NCBI RefSeq assembly: GCF_009831415.1 | Contig: NZ_CP043727.1 | Coordinates: 2,666,001-2,730,000, forward strand | Source of the DNA: Yersinia canariae | GTDB taxonomy: Bacteria; Pseudomonadota; Gammaproteobacteria; Enterobacterales; Enterobacteriaceae | Length of the DNA stretch: 64,000 bases | Direction: 5' to 3' | Part shown: positions 24,549 to 27,840 of the stretch, one piece after another | How positions within the stretch are numbered: position 1 is the first letter of the stretch | Layout of the letters: every line of letters begins with the position of its first letter | The notes under the pieces: model-generated | Told to the model about the DNA's origin: nothing | What the model saw: the letters and a program-made list of their open reading frames with translations, nothing else | Database searches by the model: none | Made by a program: the position numbers and the translations under genes

Positions 24549-24577
24549 AATTTATGGCTCCCACAGGCCATCCTCAT

Positions 24578-24625
24578 AGCACCTGATCAATAAAGCGCGA
24601 GCAGGTGCTCATTATTTTTCCCGTG
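24578..24625 (+). terminator. Probable terminator after the HAD gene
   Basis: A perfect AGCACCTG / CAGGTGCT stem encloses 16 bases and is followed by CATTATTTTTC. It lies 30 bases after the HAD stop. Confidence 0.6.
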
Positions 24626-24792
24626 AAAGCGAGTAAAGTTTCCAGTCCATAAAACTCATTCCTGATAACGAATTTAAGTAAGCAGAAAATGCGGGATATA
24701 CGAAATACTAAAAGACAAAAAGGTAGACTAAATAACCATCTCCACAATATAATCAGATTATTCGTACACCAATATATATAAGGAGGATTGCC

Positions 24793-24876
24793 ATGTTGAC
24801 CCGTGAAATGTTTTTAGTTTCGCTCGTCCTTAGCGATCGTCATAGCTCAAGCACCCCCGGTATCGTACTGCGATAA
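24793..24876 (+). CDS. 27-residue leader peptide upstream of the ABC-F gene
   Basis: ATG 24793 has an excellent AAGGAGGA ribosome site six bases upstream. It encodes 27 residues rich in Leu, Val and Ser, with TPGIVLR at the end. It ends 112 bases before the ABC-F start. Its codons lie inside two RNA arms that compete for one partner (see next entry), so it looks like a regulatory uORF that senses ribosome stalling. I do not recognise the peptide. Confidence 0.7.
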   Translation: MLTREMFLVSLVLSDRHSSSTPGIVLR

Positions 24877-24969
24877 CCTGCTTGAGCGAAGCAAACTAAT
24901 AATCTGAGAACTTCCCTCCGGCTTACCGGTTATCGTCAGCAATTTTCGACGATAGGCATTTTAATGCCT
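24814..24969 (+). promoter_or_regulatory. Candidate ribosome-controlled attenuator of the ABC-F gene
   Basis: Segment TGCTTGAGC-GAAGCAAACTAA (about 24878-24899) can pair either with GCTCAAGCA (24845-24853) or with TTAGTTTCGCTC (from 24814), both inside the leader ORF. CGATAACC at the uORF stop (24871-24878) pairs with GGTTATCG (24928-24935), which itself overlaps TATCGTC/GACGATA (24931-24954). A last AGGCATT/AATGCCT hairpin ends 20 bases before the ABC-F start. Such mutually exclusive pairings around a uORF are the hallmark of antibiotic-inducible attenuation of ABC-F and erm genes. Confidence 0.65.
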
Positions 24970-24988
24970 GAAAATCTGGATAAGCATC

Positions 24989-26743
24989 ATGAGTACATTA
25001 CTTTCTGCACAATCTGTCTGTTACAACAACACGTTCGGCCCATTGCTGACTGAGATCTCTTTTAGTCTGAAAAAAGGCGATCGCATCGGCCTGATTGGCC
25101 ATAATGGCTGTGGCAAAAGTACACTTTTAAAAATCCTCAGCGGCGCACTTTCTGAAACTTCTGGCGCTATCACTGTGGCAAATCAATGTGTGATGGCGAC
25201 CGTGGAACAGCATTTGCCCCCCGCCTTGAACAATGCCACATTGAAAGATGCGGTTATCAATCACCTGCCAGACAGCCTGCATCAACCTGAACATTGGCAA
25301 GCCGAAGTTCTACTCACCACACTAGGTTTTGATGAAACCTCCTGGTCGTTAACTGCTGGAACCCTGAGTGGCGGGCAGCATACGCGGCTGTTACTGGCAC
25401 GAGCACTGGTGCGCCAACCCGATTTACTGCTACTGGATGAACCCAGTAACCATCTGGATTTACCGACGCTACTATGGCTTGAACAGTTCCTACAAAACTG
25501 GAGTGGCAGCTTTGTACTGGTATCACACGATCGCAGCCTGCTGGACCGCGTAACCAACTGTACCTGGATCCTGCGCGATAAAACTTTGCAATTCATTCGT
25601 CTGCCCTGCACTCCCGCGCGAAAGGCATTGGAGGAGAAAGACATTACCGATATCAATCGCCATCAGTCCGAGCAAAAAGAGATCGACCGCGTAGCGAAGA
25701 GTGCCAAACGGTTGGCTATCTGGGGCAGCGTGTATGACAACGAAAAACTGGCGCGTAAGGCTAAACAGATGGAAAAACAGGTCGAGCGAATGAAAGGAGA
25801 GCAAACGCGACTGACGGCCAGTCATCAATGGCAATTACAACTCCATGGCGAAGCATTACCCGCTGACCGCGTGTTGGCGCTGTCTAATTTACAGATACGC
25901 CCTGCGCCAAGAGCACCAGTTCTGTTCGAACTGGACGAGGTCAGGGTAAAAAGTGGCGATCGCATCGCGCTAGTTGGCCGCAATGGCTGCGGTAAGTCAT
26001 CGTTATTACACCGTTTATGGCAAGCGTTTCACCAACCAGAAACCACCGACACGGGCATAGTTTTCCATCCCAAGGTCCGTGTGGGCTATTACGATCAAAG
26101 CCTGCAGCAATTACATGATAACGATTCGCTCAATGACGCACTGGTGCCTTTTGCACCATTAACGGAAGACCAGCGGAAAATGGCACTTATCGGCGCGGGT
26201 TTCCCTTATCTGCGCCACCAGCAAAAGGTCAGCACCCTCAGCGGCGGCGAGCGCTCGCGGCTGTTGTTTATCGGGCTTACGCTAGCGAACTATTCATTGC
26301 TGCTACTGGATGAGCCGACCAACCACCTCGATATGGAAGGTAAGGAGGAACTGGCACAAACGCTAAAAACGTTCAGCGGCGCAGTATTATTAGTCTCGCA
26401 TGACCGCACACTGATTGAACAAAGTTGCAATCACTTTTGGTTGATCCACCAACAGCGGCTTGAGAACTGGCACGACTTAGCAGCGGTCTACAACATTCTG
26501 GCCGATAAAGTCGTTATGACATCGAGTTCAATTTCAGCCGTTGCCACTGAAGTCATTACCGCGCCAAGAGAGAGTGAGGAAGAGTGCTTGCTGACAACCT
26601 TACTGGAACTGGAAGCCAAACTGGCCGAGGATTTAGCGCGTAAACCTAAACACCAAAAAATCATCTTGCAACGTGAGTGGCAGCAACAAATCGACCAGCT
26701 TAATAAGCTGCTAGATTTGGGTTCTGAGGGCAATCGAAATTAA
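24989..26743 (+). CDS. ABC-F family ribosome-associated ATPase
   Basis: The 584-residue protein has two ABC domains and no membrane segment. Walker A motifs are GHNGCGKST (near 38) and GRNGCGKSS (near 333). Signatures are LSGGQ and LSGGE, and Walker B runs are LLLLDEPSNHLD and LLLLDEPTNHLD with the ABC-F NHLD form. A charged linker (about 195-280) joins them, and a short coiled C-terminus ends the protein. It is not an obvious EttA, Uup, YbiT or YheS. ABC-F proteins act at the ribosomal E site, and some confer resistance to 50S antibiotics. The regulated leader favours a resistance-type role, by inference. Confidence 0.88.
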   Translation: MSTLLSAQSVCYNNTFGPLLTEISFSLKKGDRIGLIGHNGCGKSTLLKILSGALSETSGAITVANQCVMATVEQHLPPALNNATLKDAVINHLPDSLHQPEHWQAEVLLTTLGFDETSWSLTAGTLSGGQHTRLLLARALVRQPDLLLLDEPSNHLDLPTLLWLEQFLQNWSGSFVLVSHDRSLLDRVTNCTWILRDKTLQFIRLPCTPARKALEEKDITDINRHQSEQKEIDRVAKSAKRLAIWGSVYDNEKLARKAKQMEKQVERMKGEQTRLTASHQWQLQLHGEALPADRVLALSNLQIRPAPRAPVLFELDEVRVKSGDRIALVGRNGCGKSSLLHRLWQAFHQPETTDTGIVFHPKVRVGYYDQSLQQLHDNDSLNDALVPFAPLTEDQRKMALIGAGFPYLRHQQKVSTLSGGERSRLLFIGLTLANYSLLLLDEPTNHLDMEGKEELAQTLKTFSGAVLLVSHDRTLIEQSCNHFWLIHQQRLENWHDLAAVYNILADKVVMTSSSISAVATEVITAPRESEEECLLTTLLELEAKLAEDLARKPKHQKIILQREWQQQIDQLNKLLDLGSEGNRN

Positions 26744-26886: not shown

Positions 26887-27141
26887 ATACATTTAACTAT
26901 ATCTGACCTGCACAAATAACCAACCGAGCCGGAGATTTTGGTCACTTCATATCCGATCTCTCAAGATTTAAGGAGCTAAAATCGCTGTGCTTACACTGGC
27001 AACAGATATAATCGTGAAATAGCATGGTGTCGTCATCTACATGAAAAGTTGCAATCAGTTCTTTATTAGGTGAACAGTCAGATTCGCCTGTCGACTGAAA
27101 ATTCGTTATTATCTGCTGCCACTCTCCATCCGGTCAGCCTG

Positions 27142-27840
27142 ATGTCTACGATTCGCGATACCTTTATTGCCCCGCCCTGCTATGACAAGATAGAAACGCT
27201 CTATCAGGACGATCACCTGGTGCTTATTAATAAACCCTCGGGGCTGCTCAGCCTCTCGGGGGAAAACCCGCAGAATATCGATTCAGTACATCATCGGCTG
27301 GTGCAGATATTCCCGGGTTGCACCCTGGTCCACCGCCTTGACTTCGGAACTTCCGGGCTGATGGTGATTGCCCGCAATAAGACTATCAATGCCGCCCTCT
27401 GCCAACAATTCAGTCAGCGCACAGTAACCAAGATCTACAGCGCTCTGCTTTGCGGACATCTGGACGACAACGAAGGAGTGATCGACGCTGCGATTGCTAA
27501 AGACCCGGCGCTGTTTCCGCTGATGTCGATTTGCGCAATCCACGGCAAGCCCGCTCGCTCCCATTATCGGGTCGTTGAGCGCTTTTATCACGAGTTGGAA
27601 GACAAGACGCAACTGCCGTTGACGCGAGTTGAACTAACCCCGGAGACCGGGCGCACCCATCAATTACGGATTCACTGCCAGCAGTTGGGCCACCCTATTT
27701 TGGGCTGCGACCTGTATGGTGGCCGCCTGCTGCCAGGCACAGAACAAACACCGCGGCTAATGCTACACGCCAGTGAATTGCATTTTATTCACCCCATCAG
27801 TGAAGAGCGGATCAATGCTCATCACGCCTGCCCGTTTTAG
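27142..27840 (+). CDS. RluA-family pseudouridine synthase
   Basis: The 232-residue protein has the RluA catalytic motif HRLDFGTSGLMVIAR with the nucleophilic Asp. Upstream is LVLINKPSGLLSL and downstream is TGRTHQLRIHCQQLGHPILG, both standard family blocks. It isomerises uridines in rRNA or tRNA; the target site cannot be told from sequence. The reading frame is open to a GTG at 27070, which would add 24 residues, but family similarity begins close to the ATG chosen. Confidence 0.85.
   Translation: MSTIRDTFIAPPCYDKIETLYQDDHLVLINKPSGLLSLSGENPQNIDSVHHRLVQIFPGCTLVHRLDFGTSGLMVIARNKTINAALCQQFSQRTVTKIYSALLCGHLDDNEGVIDAAIAKDPALFPLMSICAIHGKPARSHYRVVERFYHELEDKTQLPLTRVELTPETGRTHQLRIHCQQLGHPILGCDLYGGRLLPGTEQTPRLMLHASELHFIHPISEERINAHHACPF

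Follow-up and report, generated by a model that had tools for sequence, protein, structure and literature searches.

What switches on an ABC-F ATPase gene of Yersinia canariae that stands behind a short open reading frame and a stretch of folded RNA? The gene lies in a 64,000-nucleotide stretch of DNA (the window, by which we mean the whole stretch analysed), taken from a genome of 4.71 Mb; the nearest named protein match is from Yersinia thracica, at 89% identity. The preliminary description of the locus placed a 27-codon upstream open reading frame (uORF) with a strong ribosome site 112 bases ahead of the ABC-F start and likened the arrangement to translational attenuators of the erm kind. 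The uORF is indeed there (24793–24876, led by AAGGAGG at 24780–24786, with the ABC-F ATG at 24989), and the likeness is well supported by what computation brings out: conservation and covariation of the leader, its exclusive association with the ABC-F gene, and folding models in which most relatives switch. We consider it probable that the leader is a translational attenuator, opened by a ribosome stall whose likeliest cause is a 50S-targeting antibiotic that the ABC-F protein (probably PAF1) helps to clear. Translation of the uORF, stalling on it, the inducer and the function of the ABC-F are what we infer from these patterns. The parts of the locus are as follows.

24724–24753, + strand: promoter-like TAGACT-18-TATAAT, lying ahead of the uORF (agrees with the consensus at 10 of 12 positions; a consensus match only)
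24780–24786, + strand: uORF Shine-Dalgarno AAGGAGG, 6 bases ahead of the ATG
24793–24876, + strand: uORF (putative leader peptide MLTREMFLVSLVLSDRHSSSTPGIVLR), 27 codons, ATG start, TAA stop
24803–24823, + strand: possible small hairpin within the uORF, GTGAA / TTCGC in the window (95.8% of cells paired, no double changes)
24829–24834, + strand: uORF codons 13–14, Leu-Ser in the window (residue conservation)
24845–24865, + strand: strand 1, within the uORF, made of GCTCAAGC (24845–24852) and GGTATCG (24859–24865)
24868–24891, + strand: strand 2, the uORF end and just beyond (covariation), with segments CTGCGATAACC (24868–24878), GCTTGAGC (24880–24887) and GAGCGAAG (24884–24891)
24911–24939, + strand: strand 3 (covariation), with segments CTTCCCTC (24911–24918), GGCTTACC (24920–24927), GGTTATCG (24928–24935) and CAG (24937–24939)
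24931–24954, + strand: inner hairpin TATCGTC / GACGATA, a competitor of 2:3 (covariation)
24955–24968, + strand: hairpin GGCAT / ATGCC ahead of the ABC-F Shine-Dalgarno (covariation)
24976–24985, + strand: strand 4, CTGGATAAGC, in which the Shine-Dalgarno of the ABC-F lies; partner of strand 3 and, for most relatives, able to pair with strand 1 too
24989–26743, + strand: ABC-F ATPase, 584 aa; distribution fits subfamily PAF1

Of 200 dinucleotide shuffles of the 216-nt leader, just 2 equal or exceed its folding stability (z −2.76), a result which, together with helix covariation and covariance-model matches across genomes, rules out a chance structure. No Rfam family reaches its cut-off anywhere in the window. 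A consensus promoter scan of both strands yielded 2 sites, against 0.9 expected.

Conservation of the uORF

Relatives were gathered by searching a collection of one genome per species (84,980 species) with the ABC-F protein, keeping the best 80 of 107 loci, and by examining 99 relatives, which gave 16 ABC-F matches (15 excluding the window's own). Among 96 loci of this close set the ABC-F start was located in 94; the two for which the script found no start were dropped, of which L040 still shows the uORF and L098 belongs to a genome (G059) with a leader-model match. An AGGAGG-led uORF precedes the ABC-F in all 94, with 27 codons in 89, 26 in three, 30 in one and 35 in one. The wider set comprises 25 newly fetched loci (from 32 matching genomes; G718 and G222 are not included) and five further records, and all 30 carry an AGGAG-led uORF of 26 to 28 codons. 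Twenty-three of these 30 come from the order's other families or from Vibrio, Photobacterium or Aeromonas: the leader is found in three further families of this order and in named records of the three latter genera. It is not special to Yersinia: this is a real and old leader, spread through the order, built like a translational attenuator and set before one ABC-F subfamily.

From the 94 close loci, 57 leaders were retained for covariation, and 39 of these for a covariance model; coding tests used the 54 of the 57 with exactly 27 codons, and residue positions were counted in 55. The most constant feature of the peptide is a pair of residues at codons 13 and 14 (15 and 14 codons before the stop), being Phe or Leu followed by Gly or Ser in all 55 close uORFs. 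Among 23 wider uORFs the first position is always Phe or Tyr, and the second is Gly or Ser, mostly Gly, in 20. The pair keeps a constant distance to the stop in uORFs of 26, 27 and 28 codons.

Peptide selection on the uORF appears modest. For codons 2–16, pN/pS is 0.74, a value as low in 101 of 300 column shuffles; in an RNAcode-like score the true frame is the best of six, and 5 of 150 shuffles score as high. Over codons 2–27, stops occur in frame 1 in 28 of 54 uORFs, in frame 2 in 54 of 54 and in frame 0 in none, the set having been chosen for an open frame.

Some uORF positions are conserved as nucleotides. GTGA (codons 4–5) and TCAC (codons 10–11), the form that the small intra-uORF hairpin takes in most close relatives, are nearly invariant there despite varying amino acids (Cys, Arg or Ser at codon 4; His, Leu, Pro or Arg at codon 11). 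A small helix or some other RNA constraint may lie behind this; the helix itself is unproven, since it is paired without double changes. At codons 21–22 (24853–24858) the window has ACC CCC, unique among the 54 uORFs, where its relative L090 has ATT ACC.

The ABC-F gene and its association with the leader

The protein has the features of its class: two ABC_tran stretches within a single chain, nothing from a membrane family among its Pfam matches, and P-loop, LSGG-type and Walker B segments that are largely invariant in 30 members. It scores far below the NCBIfam cut-offs of the housekeeping ABC-F models EttA, Uup, YbiT and YheS (215 to 246 bits versus 599 to 936; we take PRK15064 to be YbiT and PRK10636 to be YheS) and equally below those of the resistance models Vga, Msr, Lsa, Sal, CplR and OptrA (179 to 233 bits versus 680 to 1450); five members of the family stay under the named-model cut-offs as well. 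Other ABC-F genes of the same genome pass the general model. The NCBIfam ribosomal protection-like model NF000355 was rejected as evidence of resistance because three other ABC-F genes of the genome lie above its cut-off and the window's lies below, and PADLOC matches (the best to mad3, 167.5 bits) were read as general ATPase matches.

The gene is patchy in the genus, where 8 of 24 genomes have it (E up to 1e-120), and it occurs on 40 records of a plasmid collection, several of them chromosome-sized. A small plasmid record, the 50.6-kb Morganella morganii plasmid p48659_1, carries leader and ABC-F with ada, alkB and prp genes nearby. Two enterobacterial-type copies sit in records titled Chryseobacterium sp. 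and Pseudomonas reactans, which are mislabelled or mixed records, or cases of transfer. None of four neighbouring genes of the window was found within the flanking DNA (up to 4 kb on either side of the ABC-F) in 80 relatives, a search that recovered the ABC-F itself in 80 of 80; with none of the four common to the relatives, the window neighbours were rejected as a functional unit. The RluA-like pseudouridine synthase gene that comes after the ABC-F in the window (27070–27840) is near the gene in 0 of the 80.

In Escherichia coli, megablast with the Klebsiella pneumoniae copy returned no match, and in none of 5,426 genomes did blastn find a stretch that spans 80% of the Citrobacter leader plus gene; the blastn matches were short only, those listed being annotated as uup or ABC ATPase. 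This pattern recalls PAF1, a predicted resistance ABC-F that the main text of Murina 2019 (PMC6723617) reports from Proteobacteria only, in Vibrio, Enterobacter, Klebsiella, Serratia and Citrobacter and not in Escherichia. The present ABC-F occurs in the genera listed for PAF1 and has no full-length E. coli match; from this matching distribution it is probably PAF1, a predicted resistance factor. The words "leader", "attenuat" and "uORF" are absent from the main text of that paper.

A covariance model of strands 1–4, built from the 39 leaders, matched 46 of 198 family genomes, at one place each, and the ABC-F (E up to 1e-100) was found in 47 of the same genomes. Both occur in 45, and there they are adjacent: the two matches lie within 3 bases of each other in 44 and are separated by 14 bases in the last (G059), where the protein match begins at residue 2. 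The sole leader without a protein match, in a genome that is 49% complete, precedes an interrupted relative of the ABC-F, with no open frame longer than 300 codons and matching pieces in more than one frame. Two ABC-Fs lacking a leader-model match, in G107 (L138) and G222 (L139), are 43% and 39% identical to the window's.

Across 369 genomes of the class, a strong leader match occurs only in the window's own genome, and the same holds for the protein. The own genome has a single forward match, overlapped at the same place by a weak reverse-strand one (E 0.13). Placement of the leader before other genes was considered and dismissed, the only candidates in the class genomes being two weak matches (E 2.6e-4 and 0.0068); no ABC-F is seen among the long open frames of these two loci, which were assessed on their first 60 residues. 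The leader is thus exclusively associated with one ABC-F, and its preservation alongside that gene in many bacteria of gut, soil and sea suggests a gene switched on by ribosome stalling, perhaps caused by an antibiotic.

Alternative pairings and predicted switching

Judged by conserved complementarity, the leader RNA appears to be a four-strand switch, composed of strand 1 (uORF codons 18–23), strand 2 (the uORF end), strand 3 and strand 4 (the ABC-F Shine-Dalgarno). Over the 57 leaders, 96 to 99.6% of cells are paired in the cores of helices 1:2, 2:3 and 3:4. The 1:2 core, GCTCAAGC (24845–24852) with GCTTGAGC (24880–24887), is paired in 99.6% of cells and changed on both sides in 15, of which 13 replace A-U by G-C; with its less regular inner part included, the helix is 91.2% paired and has 17 double-change cells versus a shuffled mean of 3.9. 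Helix 2:3, over 19 pairs, is 95.9% paired (13 double-change cells versus 4.3), and 3:4 taken with its two inner hairpins is 97.5% paired (27 versus 4.6). Compensatory changes of the sort by which the preliminary description proposed to judge the stems are accordingly present in 1:2 and 2:3; helix 3:4 alone (98.6% paired) hardly varies and has one double-change cell, so that most of the signal of the 3:4 structure comes from the inner hairpins. The core of the first of these (columns 180–183 with 193–196) is 95.5% paired with double changes in three of four pairs, and the GGCAT / ATGCC hairpin is 97.9% paired with double changes in four of five.

None of 500 shuffles reached the double-change cell counts of 1:2, 2:3 or 3:4 with its hairpins, but the number of pairs with double changes lies within the shuffle range for 1:2 (105 of 500) and 2:3 (174 of 500), counts that are not to be read as probabilities because the relatives share ancestry. 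Strands 1 and 4 can pair as well (95.2% paired; four double-change cells, a number as high in 20 of 500 shuffles). In Vibrio campbellii, inspected by eye, strand 3 reads CTCAAG and the Shine-Dalgarno CTTGAG, the same pairing in other letters. What is conserved is a competition, of strands 1 and 3 for strand 2 and of strands 3 and 1 for strand 4.

This arrangement differs in part from the hairpins first proposed. The pairing of the uORF stop region (24871–24878) with a gene-proximal element, GGTTATCG at 24928–24935, holds in 98.5% of cells over the 57 leaders, the window's included. Of the two uORF arms said to compete for one downstream segment, that at 24845–24852 is the covarying strand 1 core described above; the other, 24819–24825 with 24884–24890, is rejected as a family feature, being paired in 73.7% of cells with two double-change cells, no more than shuffling gives; of its seven positions, one fails to pair in 52 of 57 leaders and a second in 40. 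Masking of the ABC-F Shine-Dalgarno by strands 3 and 1 was missing from that scheme altogether.

Two other elements were considered and set aside. The pyrimidine tract CTTCCCTC (24911–24918) is complementary to the uORF's own Shine-Dalgarno, a pairing that RNAalifold predicts and that shows no covariation above shuffles; paired with strand 2 instead, the tract shows three double-change cells. A second mini-ORF, MPVTLE, precedes the gene in many enterics, and its ATG sits in a covarying hairpin (one pair A-U to G-C in 13 of 57).

The free full-length folds of the 57 leaders divide evenly between 1:2 with 3:4 (27 leaders) and 2:3 with 1:4 (27 leaders), three showing neither, so that strand 4 is closed in 54 of 57. 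Stalled ribosomes were modelled by masking an idealised footprint, from 14 nt before the first base of the P site to 15 nt after it. Averaged over the leaders, 2:3 pairing then rises from 0.46 in the free full-length RNA to 0.78 when codon 20 is in the P site, and is 0 when the ribosome stands at the stop. The number of full-length leaders with 2:3 above 0.5 goes from 27 (free) to 37, 39 and 45 at codons 15, 17 and 19 and to 0 at the stop; for RNA ending before strand 4 the figures are 15, 49, 46, 56 and 0. Openness of the Shine-Dalgarno was modelled in 40 leaders (24 from the 55 close ones, 16 from the 30 wider); it averages 0.30 free, 0.58 with the P site nine codons short of the stop and 0.28 with the ribosome on the stop, and in both groups opening starts 14 codons before the stop, the position of codon 14. 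In a control with the leader shuffled from codon 17 to the Shine-Dalgarno, openness stays flat at 0.47–0.51 throughout; a gain above 0.1 is seen in 26 of 40 leaders (14 lack it) versus 6 of 40 in this control. When the uORF and Shine-Dalgarno were kept and only the part between was shuffled, in a control of 24 leaders, openness still rose from 0.37 to 0.56, and 1:4 alone would thus give much of the opening effect.

The window's own leader switches weakly in these models. At full length 3:4 stays at 0.83 or higher whichever codon from 4 to the stop is in the P site (codon 3 gives 0.65), 2:3 does not exceed 0.16, and openness remains at 0.31–0.37; 2:3 forms only in RNA ending before strand 4 with the P site at codon 19 (0.98), being 0.00 at codon 15 and 0.02 at codon 17. 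Its relative L090 does switch in the model when the P site is put at codon 15 or 19, and in part at 17; the P. mirabilis leader is closed at full length. Opening of the Shine-Dalgarno by a stalled ribosome is, in sum, predicted in most but not all relatives and poorly in the window, and the leader RNA could work as a stall-operated switch.

A structured leader might instead set a low constant level, or couple the gene to the uORF, and sense nothing. The closed strand 4 of nearly all free folds would suit such a role, as would a window copy that hardly switches in an equilibrium model. A static lock, however, needs one helix set, and here two mutually exclusive sets are both conserved with double changes; nor would it account for a Phe/Leu-Gly/Ser pair held at a fixed stop distance in uORFs of three lengths. 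We regard a non-sensing leader as very improbable. Somewhat less so, yet still improbable, is that the stall mainly controls early transcription termination, for instance via Rho, with Shine-Dalgarno masking secondary. Stalling on toiL, translation of topAI and Rho-dependent termination are linked in E. coli, according to the portions of PMC12121999 consulted. Against this, a terminator consensus scan of the window has no site in the leader, all 3 of its matches lying upstream of the uORF (24554–24611), and the conserved 3:4 helix covers the Shine-Dalgarno.

Under translational attenuation, the events would run as follows. When no ribosome stalls, strand 4 would be closed, either by 3:4 alongside 1:2 or by 1:4 alongside 2:3, and ribosomes at the uORF stop would cover strand 2 and leave the Shine-Dalgarno closed. 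If a ribosome stalled so that its P site stood some 9 to 14 codons short of the uORF stop, on the Phe/Leu-Gly/Ser pair or immediately beyond it, that ribosome would cover strand 1; 1:2 and 1:4 would be lost because of that cover, strand 2 would pair with strand 3, and the ABC-F would become translatable. The stall would most likely be due to a 50S-targeting antibiotic, cleared with the help of the ABC-F (probably PAF1).

The signal, and comparison with known systems

The same attenuator might answer to a signal other than a drug (shortage of an amino acid or its tRNA, with serine the obvious candidate, a metabolite, or a general slowing of ribosomes), the ABC-F then being a translation factor and not a resistance factor. 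A TCA serine codon is found at codon 10 in 51 of 54 close uORFs and at codon 19 in all 54; two or three consecutive serines stand at codons 18–20 in the window and in many relatives, within the region in which stalling would open the switch; and the modest peptide selection fits such a signal, as does the suggestion of the toiL authors, in the portions of PMC12121999 consulted, that an amino acid or polyamine is a possible natural signal there. Both TCA codons, however, lie within RNA elements, whose pairing can explain their conservation. The wider uORFs have Ala or Pro at codon 10 (22 of 23), and Cys or Arg adjoins the serine nine codons before the stop in 19 of 23. The patchy presence of the gene and its lack of common neighbours, moreover, resemble those of a resistance gene. 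We judge a non-drug signal unlikely, though it deserves more weight than either alternative above; a drug as the signal and an inducible ribosome-protection factor as the product are plausible.

A broader proposal can be made only tentatively, with doubt slightly outweighing belief: a single old attenuator lineage may travel with PAF1 through Enterobacterales, Vibrionaceae and Aeromonadaceae and sense a class of 50S inhibitors, or a natural compound, through a nascent-chain motif of about [SAP]-[HRQSLP]-x-[FYL]-[GSWA]. Either strand 1 or strand 3, whose sequences are similar, could lock the Shine-Dalgarno, so that there would be two closed states and a single open one. We know of no other arrest peptide with this motif.

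PAF1 is a predicted resistance ABC-F of several common Gram-negative genera, apparently unstudied in the open-licence literature, and a conserved attenuator before it is a separate line of evidence for a gene that responds when ribosomes stall. It also offers a direct route to the signal, by way of a leader reporter set against ribosome-targeting compounds. We found no description of this leader in the open-licence literature, the scope of our search, outside of which most subscription papers fall.

Several described systems resemble it in part, as judged from the portions of the cited sources consulted. In the ermC attenuator (ermCL), a stall on the uORF changes the mRNA structure and exposes the downstream Shine-Dalgarno (PMC10219788), the same sequence of events that we propose here. 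The present leader is set apart, by description and not by sequence alignment, in its downstream ABC-F gene, its 26- to 28-codon uORF with the Phe/Leu-Gly/Ser pair, and its host group. Closer in the gene controlled are vmlR, cplR and msrD, in which a uORF precedes a resistance ABC-F gene and a stalled ribosome refolds the leader; the vmlR and cplR leaders also mask the Shine-Dalgarno of the gene (PMC9226507, PMC10201436, PMC10314930). The window leader shares with all three a uORF ahead of an ABC-F gene and, with vmlR and cplR, the apparent masking. Their uORFs are very short (MIN, MR[I/M] and MYLIFM) and all three leaders contain an intrinsic terminator, premature termination being reported as non-essential for induction of cplR (same sources), whereas the window uORF is long and its leader has no terminator-like site (by consensus scan, in the window only).

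The nearest enterobacterial precedent that we saw for a drug-sensing uORF is toiL of the E. coli topAI-yjhQ locus, where a tetracycline stall disrupts pairing around the topAI ribosome site and the authors leave the natural signal open (PMC12121999, in the portions consulted). The genes downstream differ, and the two leaders are likened by description, not by aligned sequence or structure. If a drug class does induce the present leader, PAF1 would represent an inducible intrinsic response of Gram-negative bacteria comparable to those of vmlR and cplR in Gram-positives, and its uORF would add an arrest sequence to compare with the known ones.
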